Shown: positions 15,153 to 47,141 of the stretch, in pieces
How the letters are laid out: each line of letters opens with the position of its first letter
How positions within the stretch are numbered: the first letter of the stretch is position 1
From: a virus
IMG/VR virus record: IMGVR_UViG_3300034198_012786
Span: 62,001-126,000 of that record
Direction: 5' to 3' (one strand)
Length of the DNA: 64,000 nucleotides
Translations under genes and position numbers: made by a program
Notes under the pieces: generated by a model
What the model saw: only the letters and a program-made list of their open reading frames with translations
Told to the model about the DNA's origin: nothing
The model's database searches: none

Positions 15153-16037
15153 ATGTCTCACGAGTTATTCGCAAATAATGCTCAGACTTTCCTAAATAAA
15201 CTAAGCGGCATAACCGCGACAGATTCTAAAATTCGTGTGGCCGATGCCAGTCGCTTCCCTACATCTACTGGGCAATTTAGGATTAGGATCGACGACGAGT
15301 TACTACTCGTCGTCGATGTATCTGGTAATGTCTTTACTGTTTATCGAGGCATCGAAGGCACTTCACCGCAACCTCACAACTACGGTGCTCTTGTTACCCT
15401 GATAGTTACGGCTGGAAGCCTTGATAATATCCGTGGTGATACTGGTGCTCAGGGACCTATCGGACCAACAGGTTCCATAGGTTCCACTGGTTCAACGGGT
15501 CCAAAAGGACCTACAGGTTACTCAGGATTTGTAGGTCCTACTGGTCCGGCCGGGGCAGTAGGTTTAGTTGGACCTACCGGGTCTGCGGGATTAGTTGGAC
15601 CTACCGGGTCTGCGGGATTAGTTGGACCGACTGGCCCTTCATTCGGGAGTCGGTATTATGGATCCGTTTCGGGCAACACTTCTGTAAACTTGCTAGTTGA
15701 CCCCGATTTAGGGCTAGTCCCTGGCAACGTATATCCATTGCCTTACAATTCTTCTAGTAAGATACGGGCCGAGTTAGTGGCTAGAAACTTCGGGTCGACT
15801 ACATCGCTAGGATCTAAAGGGTTTACAATTGAATGCCTAGCATTCAATGATGGTGGCACTATTTTTATCGAAAGCGAAACAGTCACACCGTTTGGTTCGT
15901 TCTCAGGATATGTGACGGGACCCTCGTTCATTTCAGACGATTCGATTCCGGGTTTGTATATTCAAGCCTGGGGTACTACGGCCAGCGGCGTTTCTGGAAC
16001 GGACTGGTCGGCAGTGTTATATTCGGTCGAAGTCTGA
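15153..16037 (+). CDS. Collagen-like short tail fibre protein
   Basis: 294 residues. Residues about 20-90 form an N-terminal beta domain ('F-R-I-R-I-D-D-E', 'T-V-Y-R-G-I-E-G-T') also present in the 1563-aa gene downstream; it probably anchors the fibre. Residues about 95-168 are G-x-y collagen-like triplets rich in GPT and GST, expected to form a trimeric triple helix. Residues about 170-294 are a beta-rich globular head without a known enzyme motif. Phage collagen-like proteins are usually fibres or host-binding appendages. Two perfect hairpins (15288-15317, 15828-15848) and a 27-base tandem repeat lie within the gene. Confidence 0.75.
15288..15317 (+). other. Perfect 13-bp hairpin inside coding sequence
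   Basis: ATCGACGACGAGT (15288-15300), loop TACT, then its exact reverse complement (15305-15317). It encodes part of the N-terminal anchor domain of the collagen-like fibre. It is the most stable of the short-loop hairpins found inside genes here. Confidence 0.7.
15564..15637 (+). repeat. 27-base tandem repeat encoding collagen-like triplets
   Basis: Two identical 27-base units (15564-15590 and 15591-15617, beginning TTAGTTGGACC) are followed by a partial third copy that diverges after 12 bases. Each unit encodes nine residues, LVGPTGSAG. Perfect identity at the DNA level implies recent slippage or expansion, so fibre length may vary between relatives. Confidence 0.85.
15828..15848 (+). other. 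9-bp hairpin inside coding sequence
   Basis: ATTGAATGC (15828-15836), loop CTA, then its exact reverse complement (15840-15848), in the part encoding the globular head of the collagen-like fibre protein. Confidence 0.5.
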
Positions 16038-18547: not shown

Positions 18548-20599
18548 ATGCCTTTCGCTGGAACGATCGGAAGTGTAGACGCTCAACCCGGAACTTTAGT
18601 TCCCGGACTCGTGAATGAGTTCGGAACGCAGGCTTTCGGCGTCATACTTCATAGTCTGACTAGCAAATCGATTCGAATTAAGTATGCGAGACCAGTAAAC
18701 GACGGTTTAGCACTAAGTGTCGATAGCTACAGGCTTTCAGTCATTACGCCAGGATCTTTTTTGCCGGAGATCGAAACGGTTCGACCATATGAGCTCGACA
18801 ATATGCAGTACGAACTTATCTTTAAGAAAAGCTTAACTTTAAACTCCACATATTCCCTCGAAATCTTCGGGGTTACTGCTTATGATGGGATTGGTGGTGT
18901 CAATGTCGGAGCTTATAACTTTGTAGCTACAGTTCCGGATTATGCGATTGCAATTGGAGCATATTCGCATAAAGAAGGATACTTAGTTATCGAATATGAT
19001 CGTGTTGTATTCCCATATACGACGGCGGCTACAGCAAGTATAAGTCCTCAAGATGATTTAACTAAGGTAAAACCACTTACATGGGTGCCAAATACTGATC
19101 TAATTCCACCGAACCTCCTTTTGTTCAAAATCGATGCTATAGACCCAACAAACTCAAATTATCTGGTCACATATAGCGCGATAAAAGATACGAGTCTTAA
19201 TACTTCGAATGGGTCGGTTCCCTTTATTGTCCCGCAAGAAATACCGAGACCGATCGATTTTCCTAAACTAAAGTCTATTAGGTTATTATTTTCTCGGATT
19301 ACCGATTGGTTCTACGATCATAATGATCCATTTAATTCATATGTAAATGTGAGAGCTTTCTTTAACGTTCCAGTTCAAATCGCATCGGCGAAGAATACTA
19401 GCAACTGGAACATGATAGTCGACGGGCTTCCAGCTGAATTCATAAACATTAGCGCTTCCTGGATAAATTCTTACATATCCTACGATTATGCATCGAGTGA
19501 ATCTGCGTGTCCAGATGCGCAGTACTTTTGGCATGTAGACTTACGGGTCCGATCTGGCATTCGAAATCCTAAAATATTGATTTCGGCTAAAATTAAATCC
19601 GAGGATGGTTTATCTGAGACTGTTCCGTCTACAACCGGTTCCTCCAGTCCACGACCTTCCGGTTCGATCCCGAAACCGTTAAAACTGGTGTCGGTTCCTT
19701 CTGTCGGTTTTTTGGCGCGGCATGATGTAGGCTTCGTATTGTCATCACCACCAAGCGTATCATATCCCTTAAATCATCAATCACCAAGTGAGAATTCTAT
19801 CTCCATATATAGTTTATACTGGTTATTAAATAACTTGTGGACTTCTTTCGATGGTCACCGCAAGAATGCGTCGTCCCATTCTACTGTAGACCTCGTTAAT
19901 ATGATTTCTGAGACAATTCCGGGCACGACTCTATCTGATCTCATATCGTCAGCCAATCTACTTAAACTAAGGATTCTTACTCATAGCACAACTGCAGAGT
20001 ACCATGGGAACGTTGCAGATTATCAAGTGTTTTCAACGCCAGATGCCGTCGATTTATCGACTCTACTCGATTTAATAGGCTCTTTAGCCAATTACTTCAT
20101 TCGTCATACACAGAATGAATTCATCCATCAAGGTTTAAGGCTATCATGGTTGAGTGCAGGTCTTTCTGACCAAATCATCACATCAGAACCCAATCAGCTC
20201 ATTGGACAGCCTTATCAGTTAACATTTAAAGCGAATGTATTGGTTTCAGACAATGAAACTGGAAACACTAACGACATATTCTATGGCTTATCGGATGTTA
20301 TAATCGGTTTGGACTATCCTCCATATGTTGCTGTCGCTCTTCCTGTCCCTGGTTTAAGATTAGAATTTAACGGTGAAGTGATTCGTTCCGATGAAGTGGA
20401 GGTCTACTTTTCAAAAGCCATAGACACAAAACAAAGTTTTAGTTATTCATTTACATCAGTGGCTCCGCCTTTGGAAGTTACTAGCTTTAAATGGCCATCT
20501 CCAACTCGCTTGCTCTTTAACGTGAACAAGATGCGCCAAAAATCTTATTCGTTATCTCTGACGGGGTTAAAAGATACCGTCGGAAATTTGGTGCCATAA
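18548..20599 (+). CDS. Tail appendage protein with SbsA-like Ig domains and H-x6-H modules
   Basis: 683 residues. Residues about 30-135 and about 610-683 look like SbsA/Big_5-type Ig domains ('Y-S-L-S-L-T-G-L-K-D-T-V-G-N' is the typical closing strand); a third Ig-like region lies around 240-350. Residues about 425-530 are helical and carry paired histidines with exactly six residues between them: a pair in DGHRKNASSH, His479/His486 and His520/His527. The same module is repeated in the 1879-aa and 230-aa genes downstream. The gene starts the appendage cluster after the 35-base palindrome, and its stop overlaps the next ATG by one base. Likely virion appendage. Confidence 0.65.
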   Translation: MPFAGTIGSVDAQPGTLVPGLVNEFGTQAFGVILHSLTSKSIRIKYARPVNDGLALSVDSYRLSVITPGSFLPEIETVRPYELDNMQYELIFKKSLTLNSTYSLEIFGVTAYDGIGGVNVGAYNFVATVPDYAIAIGAYSHKEGYLVIEYDRVVFPYTTAATASISPQDDLTKVKPLTWVPNTDLIPPNLLLFKIDAIDPTNSNYLVTYSAIKDTSLNTSNGSVPFIVPQEIPRPIDFPKLKSIRLLFSRITDWFYDHNDPFNSYVNVRAFFNVPVQIASAKNTSNWNMIVDGLPAEFINISASWINSYISYDYASSESACPDAQYFWHVDLRVRSGIRNPKILISAKIKSEDGLSETVPSTTGSSSPRPSGSIPKPLKLVSVPSVGFLARHDVGFVLSSPPSVSYPLNHQSPSENSISIYSLYWLLNNLWTSFDGHRKNASSHSTVDLVNMISETIPGTTLSDLISSANLLKLRILTHSTTAEYHGNVADYQVFSTPDAVDLSTLLDLIGSLANYFIRHTQNEFIHQGLRLSWLSAGLSDQIITSEPNQLIGQPYQLTFKANVLVSDNETGNTNDIFYGLSDVIIGLDYPPYVAVALPVPGLRLEFNGEVIRSDEVEVYFSKAIDTKQSFSYSFTSVAPPLEVTSFKWPSPTRLLFNVNKMRQKSYSLSLTGLKDTVGNLVP

Positions 20600-23500
20600 T
20601 GCCGAACGTCAATTTCATAGGCACTCCATCTACGTTAGACCGCACCATTTTTGCGAATAAGGCTACTATCGTTAAACCGCCGGTCCCCGTTTTGTTCGGA
20701 AATAACTGTTCAGTCATATCTAATGACGTTGTAGAAATTTCGACGCAAATATTCGATGATAGTTATCTCGGTAAGGATTTGAATATCAATTCAGGTCCCT
20801 TTTCCGGTCGATATGAGATTGTAGAGATCGTCAATCCTAGAAGACTAAGAGTTCGCGGCTCTAATTTTGATCTATTAGATCGAGATAGCTTAGAATCGAC
20901 TCTAATACAAAATATAACGACACTAAGATCATTATTCAACGATCATATATTAAGCTCCGATTTCCATTTAAATCCCGATGTATACAACAATTTAGATTCG
21001 GATGCCATAGACGCATTTTCGTACAAATATGTCTTGGTCGAACTGCTCACGTCTTTGGAGCAACATGCTAATAACGGACCGTTAGTCGGTCCGCCTTACG
21101 ATCCAAGCATACATTATTTTGCTGATCCAAATTACAAAATATACTCTCAAATTCAAGATCTTAATAATGTCGATTTAGTTCCTATCGTAAATACGTTTAA
21201 TCTATGTGTTCGTAGGTATAATGATCACAGGTCGAACTTAACTTTCCATGTTTCTGAAGATAACACGAACTTATACCTGCTTCCTCAGATTAAACTATCA
21301 GATTTCATCGTAAAAGCCGGACCTTTTTCTTATACGATTTTCGACCCGAGACTAGGCCAGATAGCTGACGACGCCGCCGATGTTTTTGTAACCGTAAATG
21401 ATGTTCCGGCCTCTGTAGACGCAGTCTATGGGTCATTAGGCGCAGTTGTATTGACTGACATACCGAACACAGGAGATCAAGTCAAGCTGGACTACAGTTA
21501 CTTGGTGAATCCGCCGAGTCAATTCGAGCGACTAAATAGTTTCGAATTCGTGCTGAACCAGGAAAAGAATCGTGGTAAATCGGGCTTTCCTGATCATCTG
21601 TATAGACAGCGATCATTTTTAGTGAATCCAGTCGTTGCGTCATCTGACATAATCTCTCCATATTCCCCGAAAACGACGAGCATAAAATACAAGGGTTTCG
21701 AACGTAGTTATACGGCATCTTTAAACGATCCCAACACGCTATTGCTCAATGTTCCGACAAATCGGATCATGTTTCCCGTATTCGAAGATGTCACCCCTCC
21801 GACTTATATCAGGTATGATCCGATTGTTTTACCCGAAAATCAAGTCAATCCATGGATGTTTAACGGAGTGGGCCAGACAAGCTTAATTCCTAACAACGGA
21901 GGACTTGTCTTACTTGATAACAGTAGTGAAGTCGACATTGCACTAGGCAGCCCATTTTATTCGTACTCAATTGATTTAACATACTCTAGCTATGTATATT
22001 TAGTTGCTAGACTCTCTTCCTTGGCGGATCGCGAGTCCTTTATAACGGACGGCAATGACACGGGCGTCGGATTCGGTATCACGGACGGTCAAAAAGCTTC
22101 GATTGCGGGTCTGTTATACACTGATGCGACTAATTTAGGCTCCGCGATCTTGATCGCTAATCAGCTTAAATCAAAATATTCCGCCCATTTGGCAGAGACT
22201 GGTGTTCATGCTCCTAATGATGATTTGGTTCAGGATCAGTTATCGGCCAACGATGCCGTTGATTTAGACAGCCTTATAACGCTTTGCGGCGACTTAATTT
22301 CGAAATTCAATAATCATATCATCCAGGGTCCTGCTAACATTCACAAAAACGTTGACGCTTTGGACTCGATTCTTATCCCGGCTCCGATTGATGAAGACTC
22401 TGCCATCGCTACCGTTAACAGTATCGTGTCTTCTTTTAACCATCATCTTGTTCGTGCAGACGTTCATTACAATAACGACACCACAAACACAGTGGTTCAA
22501 GTAAAACAGGTAGGGTTGTTAACCTCTCGCGGGCCCTCTGAGAATCAGTATAGCTGGAATCTATTTCCGTATGACTGGAGTGTCGAAACTTCATATTTGA
22601 TGTTCCGAAATGAAGTAGGTGATGTGTCTTTATCATTGAGCGGGAGTCTTACTCCAGGTTCTGTCGTAAGATATGAAGATCTACCTAACGCTGCCGACCA
22701 AGACCTTGTGTTTGACAACTTATACCAAGTATTTTTCGGTTCGTTGCAGGATGCGGCTACGAACCAGTCGACTTGGAAATTTATTAGAGCGAGTGTCATC
22801 CCTCTGGCTCGGAGGCAGGTGGGTAAGAATAAAACAGTTACATATGAAGCTTCGACCTTACCTGAATTCGATACTTCTTACCCTTGGATCACCGTCGGCC
22901 AGGGTGGTACTGAATACCTCAAGACGAGCCCGAATCGTCTTGTCGTAGACTCAACCAGTAGTATTCCAAGTGTCGATGTCCCTTTTACTGGATACGTAAC
23001 GGGAGAATTCAGAGGATACCTCCGGGTTGAACCAACCGCCACCCCTAAAAACCTCATAAGTGTTGATTTTAAGACTTATGGAAATTATTACAGCTTCGGT
23101 ATCGATAATAGATCATATAGTGTTAGCATCGGGGATGGTCAATACAGCACTCAATTCTGTTTTTTACAAGCGAATCCGAAGCCCGCCACGATTTCAGGAA
23201 CTAATTACGAAGGCAGTTTCAGTATCAACCCTGGCGATTTAGGCTATATTGAGATAGATGGGTCTAATCAGATCACCATAACCAATACCGGACCTTCTCC
23301 GTTGACTTCCGCGCAATCAGTTGCGGATCTAATTAATGCAAGTTTAAACGGAAGCGTAGCTACTACGGTTGCAAATCAGTATGGAAGCAAGGCGATAGTT
23401 CTAACCAGTCCTACCAAGGGCGCAAGCAGCTCCATAAATTTAATTAGCGGTAATCTTTGGTCGAAGCTCGGATTTATGCAAGGCAAAGTATTCGGTACTG

Positions 23501-26238
23501 ACTCATCACCCGAACCGAAGATGTCTTGGTCGGGTATGAACTTCCCGAATAGAAGTTACCCTGTCTGGATCGAATCTGGAAATCAGCCAGTGTTTATGGT
23601 AGGCCGGATTCTACGTATCGAAGATAATAGTACTACGGACTACAAGTCATATTCATGTGTCGACCCGTTAATCATGACCAAAGTCATTCTTCCGTCGGAT
23701 GACTGGAAATTCGATGTAAGGCTTAGAGTCGAGTCCTATATCAAGGGCGATATTGTCGAATCTGGTTCCAACTTGCACTTTTGTGGCGCTGCATTTTCGA
23801 TCGATGAAGGACCAACTGCAAGTTACGGTATCTATGGGAAAAACATTGAAGTTCATCTATCAGTAGACAATAACGACGAGCCTTATCTTAATATATTGAC
23901 TTACGTGGTCGATGGTGAAACGTCAGAATTTTCACTTAAGCAGGTCGCTGCGTTCCCATTTAGGTGGAACGATGGAGAATTCCACACATACAACATTTTC
24001 ACTGATAAGGCATCACAGATCGTGACGTTCTGGGCCGACAGCGTTCTCTTAGGCGCTGGTGTACCGTATAGTGCCTTTGAATATGGATTCTATGGACCAT
24101 CGGTAATCTTTGGAACTGGTTCATCTCCCGTCACTAACTGCGATCTTCGGTACTCCAGATCTATCACAGAATGGGATTCGATCAGCGCAATTCACTATTC
24201 TAACCTCGATGCTAACCGCTATATTGGTATATATCGGGGAGGCAGTGTAAACGATTTATCCTCTTATTATTTACATGAATTAGACTGGACAGTACCTAAG
24301 ACATACCGTCTTGTAAGAGACCCGATATCAGGCGTTACTGTATATGTTAACGGTGATCAAGTCCCCGCTATCTCCGCAAGCTATGACGTTCTATCTCTAC
24401 CTATTGATGACCTGGACTTTTTGGCGAATGTAGTGCCATCTGGTAAATTTATAGCTTTTGGTTCGTTTAATCCACTAGAGATTAGTAGAACGGTTTGGTA
24501 TGACATTAAATATTCGATCGGTGTTGAAACACTTACGGATGGATTCGTTCCGCCACACAGCGTTCTAAACGCTGCAAATGTGGTTACATCTTCTGAACAT
24601 CTGAAATCGAAATTAACTCATGCGCATAACGGAAAGATTGCTTACTCCTCGGGAACTCCGGAGACTGATTTCTTAACTGAAGATGCGTTGTCGTCCGGAG
24701 AAATTCTTTTAGATGGGACTCCGTCGTTCATATCTACGCAGAATCTGGAGTCAAGAGGCGGATTGATTACATCCGCGACTCCCGTCGGATCTCTAGCAAG
24801 CGTAAATGACGTGATAGATGCGCGTGGCAACATGGAGTCGCTCGAGGACGACACCACCAATACAGTTCTGGCCTCGGAAGCTACGACCTTTATAGGCAAC
24901 GTTGAGTTATTGAACGCCACACTAAAGAACCTAGAATCTAAATATAACGATCACATCGTGAAGACCGCTAACAATACACACAAACTGTCTGATACTTTCG
25001 ATTTTGTCGGATCAGTCTACCCAGACTACGAGACCTTCACATCCTGGTTGAATAGTTTCATCGAAGTGTATAACCGCCACTTAAGCAACTACTCACCACC
25101 AGGATCAAAGCAATTCCACAATATAGCTGATACTGCTCACATCATCGAACCTGAGTTCCCGCTCACTCTGCAAGGCACCATCGATTACTATAACCGCGTA
25201 GCCAAAAAAGTCGAAGCACATATTAACTCAGATTTCGCTCACTTAGCTTACAAGCCGACACAGATCGATTATACTCCCGACTACATTGCGGCCGTGAATT
25301 TTCTGGTTACAGTTTTCAATGAGCATATAAGGAATGAACCTACTGGTAACGACTATCACCTGGGAGTCTATGACGCCATAGCTATTAACAGCTATGCAAC
25401 AGATATCCTATCGGCATGCAGTGTAGCGAACGCCCTGAAGGCCGCATATCTGGCTCATATTCCACTAACAACGTTCAATTCGACACCCATACATCTGTTG
25501 CCAGATACCATAAACACTTCGCTCCCGGCTAATGCTACAAATACATTGGCATCTTTGATTCCACTTGTAAACGCTCTGCAAGCTAGGTTGTCTGGCCACA
25601 TCAACAACACGGGTGGTAATTTCCATTCGCCCACTGATTTCATTCCGTCCGTGGCTTTCTATGAAAACTGGGAATTTGCCATTAGGCTCATGAATTCATT
25701 AAGGGACTCTCTAAATTCCCACCTCTCTGATTTAACACTCCACACGTCTGATGACCAATTTGCCTATACACCTTCGACTGCGGTTTATGTACTAGGCTTT
25801 GGTGTTTTAGCTCAACCGCAATCAGACACCATAATATCCGAAATAAACACTATAATATCTAACATACGCTCACACACAAATAAATCTCTTTCTACTTTTG
25901 ACGGTCAGCAGGTGCACCGAACCGAAGACTTTAGAAGTTTCGACGCTTTATATAGTACAGTAGCTACAGATGAGATCACTTCAGCTCAAGCAGTCTTACA
26001 AGCTCGCAGTGTGCTCTTCGATAGTCACATACCCTGTGGCGTTGGAGCTCCCGGATTGTTAGCTTTGGCTCACGGCAGTCGAGATGTCGTCGATATACCG
26101 GAACAGTCAGATCTCAAGGATAGCTATAACGTCGCCGTATCTTTGGCTTTCGATATTCTTAAAAATTTTGGAAGCCACGTAAACAAGAAGACCTCACACT
26201 TAGAGGTCATTGATATACCGATACTGATCACCAAATGA
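20599..26238 (+). CDS. Giant appendage protein with H-x6-H repeats and LamG-like domain
   Basis: 1879 residues. Residues about 100-250, 510-640 and 1415-1879 consist of repeated helical units of the form 'L-x-x-x-[YF]-N-x-H-x6-H'. Seven pairs have exactly six residues between the histidines (for example His116/His123); others have eight or more. Residues about 879-965 hold the 'I-N-A-S-L' / 'V-L-T-S-P-T-K-G' module shared with the spike paralogues. Residues about 1034-1220 look like a concanavalin/LamG-type jelly roll, a common carbohydrate-binding fold. The His pairs could bind metal ions in a trimeric fibre, as His residues do in the T4 long-fibre tip; this is inference. No enzyme motif is seen. 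Confidence 0.65.
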   Translation: MPNVNFIGTPSTLDRTIFANKATIVKPPVPVLFGNNCSVISNDVVEISTQIFDDSYLGKDLNINSGPFSGRYEIVEIVNPRRLRVRGSNFDLLDRDSLESTLIQNITTLRSLFNDHILSSDFHLNPDVYNNLDSDAIDAFSYKYVLVELLTSLEQHANNGPLVGPPYDPSIHYFADPNYKIYSQIQDLNNVDLVPIVNTFNLCVRRYNDHRSNLTFHVSEDNTNLYLLPQIKLSDFIVKAGPFSYTIFDPRLGQIADDAADVFVTVNDVPASVDAVYGSLGAVVLTDIPNTGDQVKLDYSYLVNPPSQFERLNSFEFVLNQEKNRGKSGFPDHLYRQRSFLVNPVVASSDIISPYSPKTTSIKYKGFERSYTASLNDPNTLLLNVPTNRIMFPVFEDVTPPTYIRYDPIVLPENQVNPWMFNGVGQTSLIPNNGGLVLLDNSSEVDIALGSPFYSYSIDLTYSSYVYLVARLSSLADRESFITDGNDTGVGFGITDGQKASIAGLLYTDATNLGSAILIANQLKSKYSAHLAETGVHAPNDDLVQDQLSANDAVDLDSLITLCGDLISKFNNHIIQGPANIHKNVDALDSILIPAPIDEDSAIATVNSIVSSFNHHLVRADVHYNNDTTNTVVQVKQVGLLTSRGPSENQYSWNLFPYDWSVETSYLMFRNEVGDVSLSLSGSLTPGSVVRYEDLPNAADQDLVFDNLYQVFFGSLQDAATNQSTWKFIRASVIPLARRQVGKNKTVTYEASTLPEFDTSYPWITVGQGGTEYLKTSPNRLVVDSTSSIPSVDVPFTGYVTGEFRGYLRVEPTATPKNLISVDFKTYGNYYSFGIDNRSYSVSIGDGQYSTQFCFLQANPKPATISGTNYEGSFSINPGDLGYIEIDGSNQITITNTGPSPLTSAQSVADLINASLNGSVATTVANQYGSKAIVLTSPTKGASSSINLISGNLWSKLGFMQGKVFGTDSSPEPKMSWSGMNFPNRSYPVWIESGNQPVFMVGRILRIEDNSTTDYKSYSCVDPLIMTKVILPSDDWKFDVRLRVESYIKGDIVESGSNLHFCGAAFSIDEGPTASYGIYGKNIEVHLSVDNNDEPYLNILTYVVDGETSEFSLKQVAAFPFRWNDGEFHTYNIFTDKASQIVTFWADSVLLGAGVPYSAFEYGFYGPSVIFGTGSSPVTNCDLRYSRSITEWDSISAIHYSNLDANRYIGIYRGGSVNDLSSYYLHELDWTVPKTYRLVRDPISGVTVYVNGDQVPAISASYDVLSLPIDDLDFLANVVPSGKFIAFGSFNPLEISRTVWYDIKYSIGVETLTDGFVPPHSVLNAANVVTSSEHLKSKLTHAHNGKIAYSSGTPETDFLTEDALSSGEILLDGTPSFISTQNLESRGGLITSATPVGSLASVNDVIDARGNMESLEDDTTNTVLASEATTFIGNVELLNATLKNLESKYNDHIVKTANNTHKLSDTFDFVGSVYPDYETFTSWLNSFIEVYNRHLSNYSPPGSKQFHNIADTAHIIEPEFPLTLQGTIDYYNRVAKKVEAHINSDFAHLAYKPTQIDYTPDYIAAVNFLVTVFNEHIRNEPTGNDYHLGVYDAIAINSYATDILSACSVANALKAAYLAHIPLTTFNSTPIHLLPDTINTSLPANATNTLASLIPLVNALQARLSGHINNTGGNFHSPTDFIPSVAFYENWEFAIRLMNSLRDSLNSHLSDLTLHTSDDQFAYTPSTAVYVLGFGVLAQPQSDTIISEINTIISNIRSHTNKSLSTFDGQQVHRTEDFRSFDALYSTVATDEITSAQAVLQARSVLFDSHIPCGVGAPGLLALAHGSRDVVDIPEQSDLKDSYNVAVSLAFDILKNFGSHVNKKTSHLEVIDIPILITK

Positions 26239-26248
26239 GAGGATAAGC

Positions 26249-27376
26249 ATGGCCACCGAATTGACGTACGTAGGGGTTCAGGATTATAAGATTGACGCTT
26301 TCACCTACGTCGATCCCGTCGACATCACAAAAAATCAGATCTGGTGGTTGGTGGAGAGCTTGACGGGATTAATCTCGGGCGGTAATCCAGTGACGGGCAA
26401 CCCTGCTGCATGGACCGTGGTAGCCTCTTGCTATTATAACGGGACCTCGCTGGTCAAGGACATTACCGGCACAAATACCTGGGGAAATACATTCGACTCG
26501 ACCAAGATAGTCTGTGCCGACGGGACTGATAAGACTTTGCCTCGATCCTGGATCGTTCTGCATAGTCCGCATGCTACTTCGAATGATTTAAATCTGTACA
26601 TGACGATCGACATGTTATATCCTAACGGTGCTGATTTTTACTTCTCTCAGTCCCTGCCGGATGTCGTGGCAGCCAGTTCTACAGCTCGACCTGTGGCCGA
26701 AGACGAGTTCGGCTATAGCCTTTTGGATGCAAACATGTATTACGCAGGAAATGCCATAAATAATGGGGATGTAGAACTATCTCATTACAATCATTTCGTA
26801 CTCTGCACAAGCGCCTCTCAAAATCGTGGCGGTTTCTATTTCTTCACCAATCCTGCAAACGCGGAGAAGTTTTACGCGACTATCCTAGCTACCCGCATCG
26901 ATAATATTCGAGCCAACGATAATCAGCCCTCGGTTGCAGCTGCCGCTTTCGAAGATTATGACTCATTTAAGATTTCTCCTTCCTACAGCATTTTCTCGAG
27001 TTCCAACTCTGGGACGGAATTCTACGGCGCTATGAGAGGTCGCTCCACTCAAGCGACTCCGGGTAATGACTTCGTTCAGGTAGTTGCAGGATCTTGCGCC
27101 ATAAACGGAAGTTATAGCGGACTAATAGACGATGGCTACGTGAACGATCAGAATGAAAGTGATGGTAATTACAACGAGTGGCACATACCGGTATTCACAC
27201 TATATTCGCATCAGCAATTCAAGGGTCGCTTGCGAGACATTAAACTCGCAAGCGGGGTAATCCCGCAGCTAGCGACCCGTCCAGCTGCGCCGGTTGGAGT
27301 GCCGCCGAAATATGACTATATTAAGGTAGGCGACTGCTGGATGCCTTGGCCGTTCCAATATAATCCTGCTGTCTAA
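26249..27376 (+). CDS. Virion structural protein, unknown family
   Basis: 375 residues after a GAGAGGATAAGC leader with good ribosome-binding spacing. It is beta-rich and aromatic. The 'A-W-T-V-V-A-S' and 'R-S-W-I-V-L-H-S-P' blocks and the ordered Gly/Asn/Tyr-rich C-terminal half resemble a family of single-copy phage structural proteins I have seen without a firm function. No transmembrane or catalytic motif is visible. It lies in the appendage cluster, between the giant repeat protein and a small Trp-rich protein, so a fibre or appendage component is likely. Confidence 0.6.
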   Translation: MATELTYVGVQDYKIDAFTYVDPVDITKNQIWWLVESLTGLISGGNPVTGNPAAWTVVASCYYNGTSLVKDITGTNTWGNTFDSTKIVCADGTDKTLPRSWIVLHSPHATSNDLNLYMTIDMLYPNGADFYFSQSLPDVVAASSTARPVAEDEFGYSLLDANMYYAGNAINNGDVELSHYNHFVLCTSASQNRGGFYFFTNPANAEKFYATILATRIDNIRANDNQPSVAAAAFEDYDSFKISPSYSIFSSSNSGTEFYGAMRGRSTQATPGNDFVQVVAGSCAINGSYSGLIDDGYVNDQNESDGNYNEWHIPVFTLYSHQQFKGRLRDIKLASGVIPQLATRPAAPVGVPPKYDYIKVGDCWMPWPFQYNPAV

Positions 27377-27386
27377 TGGTCAATAA

Positions 27387-28079
27387 ATGGCATCTGTTAA
27401 TGTCGACGCGAATGACTGGTATGAAGTAGACCCACCTTTATTTGCGTTGGCATATATCCCAGGGGACCCGGAATGGGTCCCCTGGATAGATGTAGAAACA
27501 TGTTTATGGAATTTAGCTTATAATGTTATCGACATACCATGGTGGGACACATTTACATACGACTGGACCGTAGGTAAGCCCCAGGACGTTAATCCATATG
27601 TGCCGACCCGGACGTATAAATGGGCTTTGGCGTATACGATTGATGCAACACCATGGGTGCCTTCTCGGTATGCCCCTATTACTCCAGATGTAACCCCAGA
27701 AATTGTTGATCTGGTCAAATTAGCCAATCTCCTCAAGGCCGCATATAATAAACATATTGCTCTAGAGGTATTTCGGGAATACCGTAATAACGTTCCGGTT
27801 AAGGAACGAGTACATATGCAAAGTGACTTTATTAATAGTGTCACTTCTCCGGATGCAACAGATTTAGACTCTGCGATCGTTTTATTGAATGAAATCAAAC
27901 TAAGGTATAATAGGCACCGAGAAGAACATTCAGTACATGGAAATGTCGCTGTTATACGTCTCGATGCCCCAGCTCGTACGCTTTACAACAGTATTTCGGT
28001 TTATTTAAAATCAACAGGGATCCCGAATTTGTTGGCCTCTTTCTCGGATGATGAGGGAGGAACGCTAAACGACGTATAG
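27387..28079 (+). CDS. Trp/Pro-rich protein with H-x6-H module
   Basis: 230 residues. Residues about 10-100 repeat short Trp/Pro/Tyr-rich units (WVPWIDV, IPWWDTF, TPWVPSRY), perhaps three or four copies of a small beta unit. Residues about 108-190 repeat the helical His-pair module of the larger appendage genes, here as LKAAYNKH with a long His spacer and LRYNRHREEHSVH with six residues between the outer histidines. The shared module suggests that these three proteins assemble together or share a partner. A perfect 11-bp hairpin lies at 27459-27485. Function otherwise unknown. Confidence 0.6.
   Translation: MASVNVDANDWYEVDPPLFALAYIPGDPEWVPWIDVETCLWNLAYNVIDIPWWDTFTYDWTVGKPQDVNPYVPTRTYKWALAYTIDATPWVPSRYAPITPDVTPEIVDLVKLANLLKAAYNKHIALEVFREYRNNVPVKERVHMQSDFINSVTSPDATDLDSAIVLLNEIKLRYNRHREEHSVHGNVAVIRLDAPARTLYNSISVYLKSTGIPNLLASFSDDEGGTLNDV
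27459..27485 (+). other. Perfect 11-bp hairpin inside coding sequence
   Basis: CCAGGGGACCC (27459-27469), loop GGAAT, then its exact reverse complement (27475-27485). It is GC-rich and therefore stable, and lies about 70 bases into the 230-aa gene. Confidence 0.65.
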
Positions 28080-42700: not shown

Positions 42701-44755
42701 ATGTCTGACGCCATCCAGAAACTTCGTGATATCCGCACATCAGATAAGTTAAATTTACCAGGATCCCCGTTCCTAAAACCAGCGTTTGCGAACGGGGACC
42801 CTATCATTCTCCGGAATTATCAGAAAAGCGGTATTGCTAATCTTCTTTTAGCGCCACGGACTATTCTGGGTGACGGCACAGGTCTTGGAAAGACTATCCA
42901 GGTGCTGAGCACTATTGGTTACGTTTGGATGAAAGAGCCAGACTATATACCCATTATTTTAACCACGAAATCAGCCCTATTTCAGTGGGAGTCAGAAACC
43001 TTAAAATTCATGACTGGCATGCAGCCTGTCGTTATTCATGGCGAGCCCCATGAACGACAGCTACAGTATGAAGAATTCTTTGACTCAGAGTCGCATCGGA
43101 AAATACTGCTAATCACGTATGACACGCTATTCCGAGATCTAGACTCGACGGTCGTCAAGGATCGTAGCGTCAAGCCTGATCCTAAGCTTAAGAAATTACT
43201 CAAGAATAAAAAGGACGAATTTAACGATATAAAATCGCAATTAGAATCTGGTATGAGTGTTCTACGAAGTATCACTGATTCTCGAAAATTCGAAGATGCA
43301 GAGTATGTTTTCTCTAGCCTAAATGGCAAAAGTCTCCCGCGCCCGTATGGATGGTCAGATGATGATCAGCTTATCTTAAACCGCACCATCGGGCTTAAAG
43401 TAAAATTCGAATCGACGAGACTAGAAATCGAGAGCATATCCAATAAAATTTCGCCACCTATGACCACAATAGGCCTCGCTGAACGCGTGTCGACTCTGAA
43501 GGCCGAAAATCCTAATTTAAAGTTCATGCTGGTGATGGATGAAGCCCACAAAGTAAAAAATTATCGTAGCCAAGTACATGATAAAGTCAGGGCGATTTCT
43601 CTACAATGTGATCGCATTGTGGGGATGACTGCAACGCCCGTCAAGAATAAACTGATGGAATTTTTCGGGATATTCCGAATTGTTAATCCGTCTTTATTCC
43701 CTAAGGTCACAGCCTTTCAGAACGAATATTGCGTTACTAAGCTTCAGAGAGTAGGCGGCGGTAGACAAGTTCCAATTGTGGTCGGATATAAGAATCTAGA
43801 TAAATTCGTCGAAAAAATCGAACCCTATTATCTCTCTCGAAAAAAGCACGAAGTCGCCAAAGAATTACCCGAGCTTATTTCGGTAGAAATTCCTTGTGAA
43901 CTTAGCCAAATACAAGATGATCTTTATGATATGGCAGAGTCTGGTGTTGGAGGTTCGGATGATACAGAGGAAGGAGCGGGTGCGGAGATACTAGCTTCCC
44001 TGACCATGTGTGCTCAGGCAGTCAATGCACCGCAGCTCATATTGAATGAGGAGGGTGAGCCGTTTGATGGAAGTTCCACTAAAATAGAATCTCTTATCGA
44101 CCTTCTTGAGAATGACGCGTTTGACCAGAAAGTGATCATTTTCTCTCGATTCGAGAAAATGATTAGTCAAATCGAAGTATCATTAAAAGAATCAAACATT
44201 AAATACGTTAGAATCACAGGGAAAGAATCTGATCCAAAAATGCGTCAAAACGCAAGAGAGAAATTTCAAGATCCGAACTCCGGCGTTAACGTGATAATGA
44301 TTACGATGGCCGGTTCTGAATCTCTAAACCTGCAGGCGGCAGAACACTTCGTTTTCGTCGATCTCCCTTGGTCTTATGGTGATTATGACCAGCTTCTAGG
44401 CCGAATGATACGCATCGGCTCTTCTCATAAGACGGTCGTGGCTCACCACATGCTGGGAGTCCGAATCTCCGGCGAGAAGACTATAGATCATCACGTACTT
44501 AAGGCGCTAAGAGAAAAGAAGAAGCTCGCAGATAAAGTAGCCGGAAATTCTTTGGTCGGTGGTTTATCATTTGAGTCTAAAGACGCCGTTCAAGATATTC
44601 TGTCATACATGCGCAGTGACGAGAAGAAGGACTCAAAGTTTAAATCAAATAAATCGATTAAGAAAGCCAGTCCCGTGAAGCCGAAGATGAATGCTGAAGT
44701 GAAAGCGTCCGAGCCGAAGATAGACACAGTTGAAATCGATCTAAGCGATATCTAA
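42701..44755 (+). CDS. SNF2-family DNA helicase/ATPase
   Basis: 684 residues. Superfamily 2, SNF2-type motifs are clear: motif I GDGTGLGKT (residues 57-65), motif II DEAH (280-283), motif III 'G-M-T-A-T-P' soon after, and motif VI 'Q-L-L-G-R-M-I-R-I-G' (from residue 564). Residues about 150-270, between motifs Ia and II, form a charged helical insertion. The C-terminus (about 630-684) is Lys-rich and disordered. Phages often carry such helicases beside replication genes; T4 UvsW is a functional analogue that remodels replication and recombination intermediates. It opens the replication block and is followed nine bases later by the loader-like gene. Remodelling of stalled forks or branched DNA is inferred. 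Confidence 0.85.
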   Translation: MSDAIQKLRDIRTSDKLNLPGSPFLKPAFANGDPIILRNYQKSGIANLLLAPRTILGDGTGLGKTIQVLSTIGYVWMKEPDYIPIILTTKSALFQWESETLKFMTGMQPVVIHGEPHERQLQYEEFFDSESHRKILLITYDTLFRDLDSTVVKDRSVKPDPKLKKLLKNKKDEFNDIKSQLESGMSVLRSITDSRKFEDAEYVFSSLNGKSLPRPYGWSDDDQLILNRTIGLKVKFESTRLEIESISNKISPPMTTIGLAERVSTLKAENPNLKFMLVMDEAHKVKNYRSQVHDKVRAISLQCDRIVGMTATPVKNKLMEFFGIFRIVNPSLFPKVTAFQNEYCVTKLQRVGGGRQVPIVVGYKNLDKFVEKIEPYYLSRKKHEVAKELPELISVEIPCELSQIQDDLYDMAESGVGGSDDTEEGAGAEILASLTMCAQAVNAPQLILNEEGEPFDGSSTKIESLIDLLENDAFDQKVIIFSRFEKMISQIEVSLKESNIKYVRITGKESDPKMRQNAREKFQDPNSGVNVIMITMAGSESLNLQAAEHFVFVDLPWSYGDYDQLLGRMIRIGSSHKTVVAHHMLGVRISGEKTIDHHVLKALREKKKLADKVAGNSLVGGLSFESKDAVQDILSYMRSDEKKDSKFKSNKSIKKASPVKPKMNAEVKASEPKIDTVEIDLSDI

Positions 44756-44763
44756 GGTATACC

Positions 44764-45636
44764 ATGAATTGCAAAGTCTGTGGTAATACAGGCGTCATAG
44801 AGAAAGATAATAAGACATTCGAGTGCCACTGTGCATTCGTAAGGAGGATGGCTGCTAGTATGCCCGCGTATATTAGGCGGGCTGAAGTTCGTAAAGAGCA
44901 TGTTTCGCTTCCGATCATGGCTGCCCTAAAGAAACACGCTCTAGTCATCAGTGCTTGGCAGGACATGAAATCTGTAGTCAAAGCTGCGATGATTTCTAAC
45001 CCAAACATGTTTATTCGAATTACGAGCGACCGAGAAATTCGGGATGTATATGTCGGAAGTAAATCAAGAGCCGCAAGAGGCGACGAAGAAGGATCGATAT
45101 ACAATAGCCTAGAAGATTTAATGGAACCTCCGAGTCTATGTATAGTAAGACTTAATGAATTGTCATATAAAAATAAAGCTGCTCCTGGAGCCCTTGAAGA
45201 AGCTATTTGCTATCGAATCGACAGAGATAAACCTACCTGGCTTTATTCCGACTGCGATAGGCCGTTTACGGTCGGTAGCCATGCCTATTCGGATTCAATA
45301 GCAGACGTAATTAAGACGAATTTCCCTATAGTCCGCATTCCTCGAATTCTGCCCAGCATCAACTTAGGGGAAGACCTGAATTTGATGCCGGAACCTGTGA
45401 ACAATGTTGGTCAATCACAGAATGACCTCGTCATAACTGAACCGATGCCTTTGCAAGAGGATGTAGTGGACGGCGTTCTGGAGACTTCAGAAGTATCGAA
45501 AACGGCCAGCAAGCCTAAGACCAAGGTAAGGATCAAACCGTCAACCGATGAAGACGCCGATACTGGTGGCCTTTCGTTGTATGGTTCCGGACTGAATTCA
45601 TCTAAGAACAAGTTCAAGAATAGGAATCGGTCGTGA
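44764..45636 (+). CDS. DnaC-like helicase loader with degenerate ATPase core
   Basis: 290 residues. The N-terminus has a zinc-finger-like C3-x2-C6 ... C21-x-C23 cluster, as in many DnaC/DnaI loaders ('C-x-x-C-x-x-T-G' followed by 'C-x-C'). The following region matches the layout of an AAA+ loader domain, but the Walker A site is absent: ALVISAWQDMKSVVK stands where a G-x-x-G-x-G-K-T loop would be expected. The Walker B strand 'L-C-I-V-R-L-N-E-L' lacks the usual Asp pair. The final 90 residues are disordered and basic at the end. It lies directly before, and overlaps as GTGA, the DnaB-like helicase gene, which supports a loader role. It probably does not hydrolyse ATP. Confidence 0.6.
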   Translation: MNCKVCGNTGVIEKDNKTFECHCAFVRRMAASMPAYIRRAEVRKEHVSLPIMAALKKHALVISAWQDMKSVVKAAMISNPNMFIRITSDREIRDVYVGSKSRAARGDEEGSIYNSLEDLMEPPSLCIVRLNELSYKNKAAPGALEEAICYRIDRDKPTWLYSDCDRPFTVGSHAYSDSIADVIKTNFPIVRIPRILPSINLGEDLNLMPEPVNNVGQSQNDLVITEPMPLQEDVVDGVLETSEVSKTASKPKTKVRIKPSTDEDADTGGLSLYGSGLNSSKNKFKNRNRS

Positions 45637-47141
45637 ACCGTATTTTAAGAAGCGTAATTACCGTAGGCAGTGTTCCTGATGCTGAAGAAGCCTTAGCTAA
45701 CTGGCATAAGCTTCAAGAACACAATCTTTCATATCCTGACGAGGAAGATGCTCGCCTTCACAAATACCTGTCCGATTTCTATGGCCAGATGGCTGCACCA
45801 CCTGACTATTTAATTGTCAAAGACTATTTTGAAAAGCAGGATGATATTGAAGTAGTTAATAGACTTGAAGAAATAAGCAAGGCTCAGCATTACATTAGAA
45901 CGAACTTTCTATCGATTGTACGATCTGAACAAGAACAACAACAGCTGAAAGCTTTCGTCTTAGCTTGTCGTGATGCTGCGAATATCGCAGAGCACGGTCG
46001 TAACATCGATAAGCCCATCAATGGGAAAAAGGTACTTCGTGGTGTTCCTGATGCTATGGGCTGGATGTTTGATCGCATGTCGGGTTTTTCTCACTTTGAG
46101 TCTGGTGAGAAACTCGAAGGATTCGTCGAAGAAGACGCAGATGAATTCCTAGAAGAATATGAACTATCCACACGTTCTAATGTGTACACCGGCCGTAACA
46201 TTTTTGGACTCGACCCAATTGATGATGCCTGTGAAGGACACAAATCCGGTGAGTTCTGGGTTCATTGTGCTTACCCAGGTGAACTTAAGACTTCGCTGGC
46301 TCTTAATTATGCATATAATAATGCCTATATTTACGGTAAGAATATCTTCTATGGCATCTTCGAGATGCCATACAAGCAATTGCGTCGTCAGTTGTATGTA
46401 ATTCATTCAAGCCACGGAAAGTTTGTAACAGAGTGGTATCGAGAGGACGTTAAGGCGGGTCGACCTAATCCTTACGTTGGTCTTGATTATCGACGAGTTC
46501 GTGATGGTAAGCTAGATGAGCTTGAGCTTAAGAGACTCAAGCTCATTGCACAGGATTTTAAGGCTAACTCAAAAGGAAAAATGTACGTATGGCGTCCCCC
46601 AATGCAAGTGGGATGTGACGAAGTACGTAAGAAATCGGAGATGTTTCATAATAAGTACGGGTGCGATGGCATCATACTCGATAACATTGGCAATATGAAA
46701 CCAAAGCATCGAACAAACGATTTCGTCACGATGATTAATAGCGTCGTTACTGAATGTCGGTTTTTAGCTTTAAATTTCGCTCGCGGTAACACGGTCCCCG
46801 TTCTAGGCTTATTCCACATGAATCGTCAAGGTAAGCTACGAGCCGACAAAGCGGACGGTCGGTACGACAGTGCCGCTATCAGCTACGCGAACCAATTGGA
46901 GAAAGACGCCGATGTAATCACCTACACTTATCTGAATGATCAATTAAGGCGGGATGCGAAGTTTAAAATCGGATGCCTAAAAAATCGAGACAATCCAGTA
47001 TTCGAGCCGTTCCTTGGGAAGATCTTTTGGAATACCAAACGCATGAGGCACATTGAGACCGGCATGATTGACATGAACGCTGACCGCATCGTTTCGACAG
47101 CTAACGCGATATCTCTTACTGCAGAAGACATGATAGCCTAG
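45633..47141 (+). CDS. DnaB-like replicative helicase
   Basis: 502 residues from a GTG that overlaps the previous stop. The C-terminal RecA-like domain of hexameric helicases is recognisable: a Walker A-like loop AYPGELKTS (residues 213-221; Lys219-Thr220 kept, but the first glycine is unusual), 'F-Y-G-I-F-E-M-P', then Walker B 'C-D-G-I-I-L-D-N-I' and later 'L-G-L-F-H-M-N-R-Q-G', matching DnaB motifs H2-H4. The N-terminal 180 residues are helical and probably form the primase- and loader-contact domain. Its neighbours are the loader-like gene and, 2 kb later, a primase zinc finger. It would unwind DNA at the phage fork. Confidence 0.8.
   Translation: MNRILRSVITVGSVPDAEEALANWHKLQEHNLSYPDEEDARLHKYLSDFYGQMAAPPDYLIVKDYFEKQDDIEVVNRLEEISKAQHYIRTNFLSIVRSEQEQQQLKAFVLACRDAANIAEHGRNIDKPINGKKVLRGVPDAMGWMFDRMSGFSHFESGEKLEGFVEEDADEFLEEYELSTRSNVYTGRNIFGLDPIDDACEGHKSGEFWVHCAYPGELKTSLALNYAYNNAYIYGKNIFYGIFEMPYKQLRRQLYVIHSSHGKFVTEWYREDVKAGRPNPYVGLDYRRVRDGKLDELELKRLKLIAQDFKANSKGKMYVWRPPMQVGCDEVRKKSEMFHNKYGCDGIILDNIGNMKPKHRTNDFVTMINSVVTECRFLALNFARGNTVPVLGLFHMNRQGKLRADKADGRYDSAAISYANQLEKDADVITYTYLNDQLRRDAKFKIGCLKNRDNPVFEPFLGKIFWNTKRMRHIETGMIDMNADRIVSTANAISLTAEDMIA
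46516..46546 (+). other. 11-bp hairpin inside the helicase gene
   Basis: ATGAGCTTGAG (46516-46526), nine-base loop, then its exact reverse complement (46536-46546). It encodes a Glu/Leu/Lys helix, so part of the symmetry may come from repeated codons. Confidence 0.4.

Follow-up and report, generated by a model that had tools for sequence, protein, structure and literature searches.

The stretch of DNA analysed here (the window, 64,000 nucleotides) comes from an IMG/VR virus record of 184 kb, in which it spans positions 62001-126000; a contig of 307,777 bases is nearly identical to this record. Three of its genes encode proteins of 683, 1879 and 230 aa in which paired histidines recur (Table 1). 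Just upstream of the 683-aa gene, positions 15153-16037 encode a protein of 294 aa that contains a collagen-like G-P-T/G-x-x stretch and matches tail-fibre PHROGs (best 1.9e-18). Replication genes follow the structural block at 42701-47141; one encodes a large helicase (PHROG 62, 7e-84) and another a helicase of DnaB type (PHROG 19, 4e-25).

Table 1. Genes and repeat copies at the locus, in window coordinates except for the tail sheath
Feature	Coordinates	Strand	Histidine pairs	Basis or remark
683-aa tail/baseplate-type protein, one triplet	18548..20599	+		nine relatives found by the non-repeat part
Triplet of the 683-aa protein	19787..20140	+	437/444, 479/486, 520/527	profile E 2.0e-24
1879-aa tail/baseplate-type protein, two single triplets and C-terminal array	20599..26238	+		13 relatives found by the repeat-free core
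1879-aa protein, triplet 1	20875..21261	+	116/123, 156/172, 210/217	
1879-aa protein, triplet 2 (residues 504-638)	22108..22512	+	530/537, 573/582, 616/623	AlphaFold2 model
1879-aa protein, C-terminal array, ten units	24883..26211	+	units 1-5: 1452/1461, 1494/1507, 1541/1548, 1576/1587, 1620/1632; units 6-10: 1667/1676, 1708/1715, 1759/1773, 1810/1825, 1860/1867	partly profile; weakest units by eye
375-aa protein, repeat-free	26249..27376	+		between the two parts of the apparently split array
230-aa protein	27387..28079	+		residues ~100-223 correspond to the split-off array end
230-aa protein, two units	27684..27950	+	123/143, 177/184	
Tail sheath, 1793 aa, outside the window	G000:36425-41806 (L151:2425-7806)			PHROG 2839, E 2.6e-33

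The original prediction held that histidines separated by six residues occur at least three times in the 683-aa protein, at least seven times in the 1879-aa protein and once in the 230-aa protein, with further copies having longer spacers. Counting bears this out for the 683-aa protein (3 H-x6-H pairs, shuffled mean 0.20) and the 230-aa protein (1, shuffled mean 0.08). The 1879-aa protein holds 9, against a mean of 1.0 and a maximum of 6 in 2000 shuffles, and the predicted number stands; two of the pairs, His1334/1341 and His1507/1514, are coincidental and not units, the true partner of His1494 being His1507 at a spacer of 12. Over the three proteins, 11 of 13 H-x6-H pairs fall within the repeat. 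Copies with longer spacers do exist, and when they are counted the proteins contain 3 + 16 + 2 = 21 units, grouped as 3 + 3 + 3 + (10 + 2), or seven triplets. An aspartate in the loop is missing from 6 of the 21, in which both histidines are retained. In the triplet of the 683-aa protein this aspartate, four residues past the second histidine, is found in the first unit only, and this triplet may be degenerate, since two of its three units lack the residue. A single HxH motif is present in the 1879-aa protein, and the other two have none.

The two units of the 230-aa protein appear to be the displaced end of the array in the 1879-aa protein. Residues ~100-223 are 46% identical to the C-terminal array of L029 (118 aa aligned, E 9e-27) and are also matched in L084, L131, L115, L046 and L110; in relatives this array end runs continuously with the 1879-aa-type protein. 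The intervening 375-aa gene, whose product has no PHROG or Pfam match, apparently reflects a gene split or an insertion. Given the division into 10 + 2 units, one putative triplet would be common to two chains. For the 230-aa protein a match to DUF7366 (0.02) was dropped as under the curated cut-off, as were TORC_C, Longin and other weak Pfam matches under theirs.

The repeat unit and its occurrence in phages

The histidine pairs mark a repeat of about 41 residues, three copies of which make up one previously undescribed small module of phage virion proteins. Each unit consists of a helix with a histidine near its end (N-x-H at the terminus) and a loop bearing H-x3-D (in full, H-x3-D-x2-N); the consensus from 662 units is AtDLataitLaNelKakyNaHraqtgvHlvaDttNvVT. 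The original prediction had named conservation of the pairs in relatives as a check, and across 625 distinct units H0 and H+7 are each conserved at 99%, D+11 at 98% and Asn at +14 at 83%, figures that are upper ones because local alignment favours conserved columns. Positions other than the conserved histidines and aspartate are mostly variable in these units, and the local alignment extends to the second histidine in 554 of 610 units. Spacing from unit to unit is predominantly 41 residues in tandem arrays. In one 932-aa ORF (L067), the array opens with repeats of ~26 residues that keep the helix-end histidine and have lost the loop histidine and the aspartate.

Between the two histidines lie 5-22 residues across the family, and the H-x3-D interval is constant in 560 of 563 units. 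The helix in the AlphaFold2 model stops two residues past the first histidine, which is a helix terminus, and the second histidine is a loop residue. The variable spacer rules out H-x6-H as a same-face heptad pair of one helix. The prediction was thus right to see a helical histidine module repeated in virion proteins and wrong to place both histidines in one helix.

Relatives were gathered by degenerate DNA patterns over IMG/VR contigs and then by a profile of units. The first pattern scan gave 15 stretches and the second at least 119, and the profile confirms the repeat in 106 of 106 new loci listed from the second. A profile search over phage proteins, also proposed at the outset, recovers the module in 137 ORFs among the matches listed; they contain 662 units, or 724 when the threshold is relaxed, and nearly all of these ORFs come from IMG/VR phages, that is, uncultivated bacterial viruses. 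Other collections yielded little. Single proteins searched by tblastn against annotated phages gave almost no matches, and a phage collection of 50,697 records, at BLAST sensitivity, contained one record with the module, itself derived from a metagenome. A pattern scan of 84,980 species genomes, using a pattern that recovers 26 of the 106 viral loci, produced 15 pattern matches, none with the repeat. When 793 genomes were searched by profile, the only matches were 4 weak ones: three phage-like proteins near capsid genes, and the HAD-like protein L154, which was judged a chance match. Within openly licensed papers, we found no description of the module.

In the genome under study, the profile of window units refinds the three proteins plus one further ORF. 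The tail sheath contains five to six units in two triplets. Several unrelated modules are inserted in this one 1793-aa protein, and a segment between its repeats resembles the E1_FCCH Pfam domain, narrowly missing the cut-off (8e-7). Of the triplet-bearing ORFs, 31 are sheath-like, 14 resemble the 1879-aa protein outside the repeats, 10 similarly resemble the 683-aa protein, and 82 fall outside these classes, 49 of them short. Many uncultivated phages carry the module, in sheath proteins, in proteins of baseplate type and in proteins encoded next to capsid genes. Triplet 1 of the 1879-aa protein lies at the same place (~residue 100) in L029, L131, L084, L110, L026, L077, L054 and L072.

The module can also be absent. 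LR745208, a 485-kb phage record, has no copy of the repeat anywhere by profile search. It does encode a homologue of the 1879-aa protein. Alignment of the two breaks off at residue 506 of the window protein and restarts at 631, and only a few residues stand where triplet 2 would be; the second aligned segment is short and weak alone, and it is in order. Compared with this repeat-free homologue, triplet 2 is a clean optional insertion. Added domains in the sheaths of other phages sit away from the tube and have been suggested to stabilize the particle or to help it adhere (PMC9230969); by this comparison we infer that the module is probably exposed on the particle surface.

Triplets, permutation and the fold model

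The units prefer to run in threes. Run length is 3 in 104 of about 190 runs, and the longer runs include 6, 9, 15 and 18. There are also 13 single units, 27 runs of two, 14 runs of four and 6 runs of five, part of which is explained by contig ends and the limits of detection. Several long arrays have unit i closest to unit i+3 (0.60 vs 0.45 in L023; 0.62 vs 0.40 in L021), a similarity that is absent from the pooled average over all arrays; for the later units of L067, lag 2 gives the best match. Long arrays resemble triplet domains joined in series.

A second arrangement is found in proteins of ~160-190 aa, several of them encoded directly after SU10-like major capsid genes. Their chain ends once the third helix is complete, so that the third loop is missing, and an F-H-x-D at the N-terminus, ahead of helix 1, takes its place. 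The capsid-adjacent forms are circular permutants of the triplet in which the histidine count is kept. Over 117 runs, the closing histidine is found only after the last helix in 62, only before the first in 41, in both places in 14 and in neither in 0 (Fisher p 7e-20, a nominal value given that related sequences are non-independent). The 14 runs with both were found with generous search windows, and their second histidine may be incidental. That no run is without a sixth histidine argues for a closed ring in which six histidines act together.

For the fold, the window triplet at residues 504-638 of the 1879-aa protein served as reference for an alignment of 104 triplets, in which the histidines keep their conserved positions. 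The AlphaFold2 model of this triplet of ~135 residues has a pLDDT of 96.2 and a pTM of 0.90; it consists of helices 10-29, 53-71 and 96-114 and long ordered loops, with no other secondary structure. A permuted head-type protein of 162 aa was likewise modelled as helices and loops only (pLDDT 92.8, pTM 0.87). Foldseek searches of the PDB with the two confident models gave best E values of 3.9 and 2.7, at probabilities never above 0.08, and the window-triplet model had no match in BFVD. A PDB sequence search returned only implausible matches, which were rejected (e.g., triosephosphate isomerase, E 0.008). The module is a domain without a recognized fold, apparently widespread in virions.

Mean-field couplings over 148 triplets include the near-diagonal pairs -17/-17, -14/-14, -10/-10, -9/-11 and -6/-11. 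Given that such couplings are present in repeat pairs 1-2, 2-3 and 1-3, a parallel closed bundle is favoured. A permutation control prefers parallel over antiparallel packing clearly for 2-3 (0/200) and modestly for 1-2 (17/200) and 1-3 (11/200). DCA scores among the near-invariant histidine columns were set aside as artefacts. The first histidine shares a heptad stripe with the coupled core positions (-17, -14, -10, -7, -3, 0), and the helix-end histidines are thus expected to point toward the axis. These patterns suggest that the three helices pack in parallel, and they point to a threefold geometry in which the histidines would converge.

A proposed single-chain pseudo-trimer and competing explanations

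Together, the grouping in threes, the confident triplet fold, the permutation and the clean insertion place the "trimer" inside one chain. With somewhat better than even confidence, we propose a single-chain, pseudo-threefold plug-in domain with a probable six-histidine metal site that stabilizes or decorates the particle exterior. In this scenario, each ~41-residue repeat would supply one helix and one loop. The three helices of one chain would pack in parallel around a pseudo-threefold axis, and three helix-end histidines, three loop histidines and three aspartates would gather at one end of the bundle. There the histidines, helped by the aspartates, would most likely hold a metal ion that pins the bundle end. 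If the fold is right, coordination by six histidines plus aspartate seems to us fairly probable, and the metal centre of the original prediction stands as a reasonable hypothesis. The closed domain, its termini close together, could plug into loops of sheath and baseplate-type proteins, and the permuted form would make up most of the small capsid-adjacent protein. By comparison with Ig-like domains of other phages, the module most likely stabilizes and decorates the outside of the virion, and it may also adhere weakly to surfaces.

The same closed three-repeat domain might do without metal, if a buried network of hydrogen bonds between histidines and aspartates caps the helices and fixes the loops and the conservation is purely structural. 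We consider this rather unlikely. The fold model is confident without a ligand, the near-invariant aspartate four residues past the second histidine could pair with a histidine, and the window units that lose the aspartate while both histidines remain can be read in the same way. However, structural histidines are usually replaceable, and a constant set of six paired histidines, maintained through permutation, is what a shared ligand site predicts.

It is also conceivable, and in our view improbable, that the closed triplet mainly binds an outside target, either a host-surface glycan or a metal scavenged for or from the host. The presence of the module in baseplate-type and sheath proteins, at many copies per particle, would suit such a function, as would the proposals that sheath accessory domains serve as adhesion aids (PMC9230969) and that phage-borne iron aids host entry (PMC11705849). 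Against this, copies also occur beside capsid genes, where adhesion is less obvious, and the conserved positions lie mainly on the presumed core, not on a variable binding face.

Tandem one-helix repeats, predominantly spaced by 41 residues and numbering as many as 18 in an array, could form an open solenoid or an extended helical shaft with repeats end to end, possibly as a trimer of chains, but this is very improbable in view of the preferred multiples of three, the couplings between repeats 1 and 3, the circular permutation with the histidine count kept, the high pTM of exactly three repeats, the single triplets inserted into a hairpin and the failure of any PDB solenoid to match. The extended, T4-like shaft of three chains that the original prediction envisaged is not supported, because a single chain supplies all three helices through its consecutive repeats. 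For the same reason, every triplet forms a domain of its own and can have no more than one six-histidine site.

Known systems and possible origin

The tip of T4 gp37 has HxH iron sites in a needle made of three separate chains. Fibres of this kind share with the module paired histidines, a place in virion proteins and a threefold arrangement, which is predicted for the module; by count, a triplet has six histidines, as many as a fibre site. They differ in that the spacer, 1 in the fibres, is mostly at least 6 in the module (range 5-22), and the module is all-alpha, has its second histidine in a loop and is built from three repeats of one chain, not three chains. T4-type iron fibres are the closest functional analogy, and membership fails on both motif and architecture. 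An HxH iron site has also been proposed for the gp12 fibre of alterophage R22Y (PMC11705849). The module resembles the Ig-like and other added domains of phages (PMC9230969) in being an optional insertion in the sheath and in unrelated families of virion proteins, whereas it is all-alpha with conserved histidines and not a beta-sandwich.

Among protein families, PHROG 37030 (76 aa, function unknown) corresponds to one repeat unit with both histidines. It is matched by 27 of 104 triplets; for the window triplet the match (E 0.0014) covers just a single unit. Its members have one unit per chain and a longer loop before the aspartate, unlike the triplets of the window. Helix matches to PHROG 6994 ("head fiber protein") occur in 29 of 104 triplets (best 1.4e-8), and its members also lie beside capsid genes. 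Those examined carry a different N-terminal domain and a helix without the histidine, and PHROG 6994 was rejected as the identity of the module. Three such "head fiber" proteins from prophage-like regions of Bacillota genomes (L158, L159, L162) have a terminal helix with NE[IC]K-type spacing and no histidine. PHROG 6994 members are possibly distant relatives that lack the histidine, or merely a similar trimeric coiled coil. The phi29 head fibre gp8.5 is a supercoiled helix-turn-helix trimer on a phage head, and shares with the module helical repeats and a threefold packing, the latter predicted for the module. Its structure is not among the PDB sequence, profile or Foldseek matches of the module.

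Single units also occur by themselves. Two Bacillota genomes encode a one-unit protein of ~78 aa beside a major-capsid-type gene, with full-length matches to PHROG 37030 (E 7e-12 and 3e-10), and in a third genome a major head gene is followed by the gene for a comparable protein of 92 aa. These single-unit proteins (L155, L156 and L157, 78-92 aa) lie in prophage-like regions of Bacillota genomes. The simplest reading of these sequences is that the triplet may have originated as a homotrimer of single units that were later fused. A fuller account, which we offer tentatively and at somewhat less than even confidence, is a new-fold pseudo-trimer with a metal centre of six histidines and three aspartates, derived from a homotrimeric capsid-associated ancestor and spread by insertion, with the last triplet of the array split 1+2 and locking the 1879- and 230-aa proteins together.

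To our knowledge, most of the accessory domains reported from virions to date are beta-sandwiches. The module would be a widespread, all-alpha and probably metal-dependent counterpart of these domains, and it is barely represented in cultured-phage collections. It gives a direct handle for annotating giant sheath and baseplate proteins, and the idea of metal-carrying phage particles becomes testable on a protein of ~135 residues. From the perspective of virion evolution, the module suggests a route from a trimeric capsid-associated protein to a single-chain plug-in domain.
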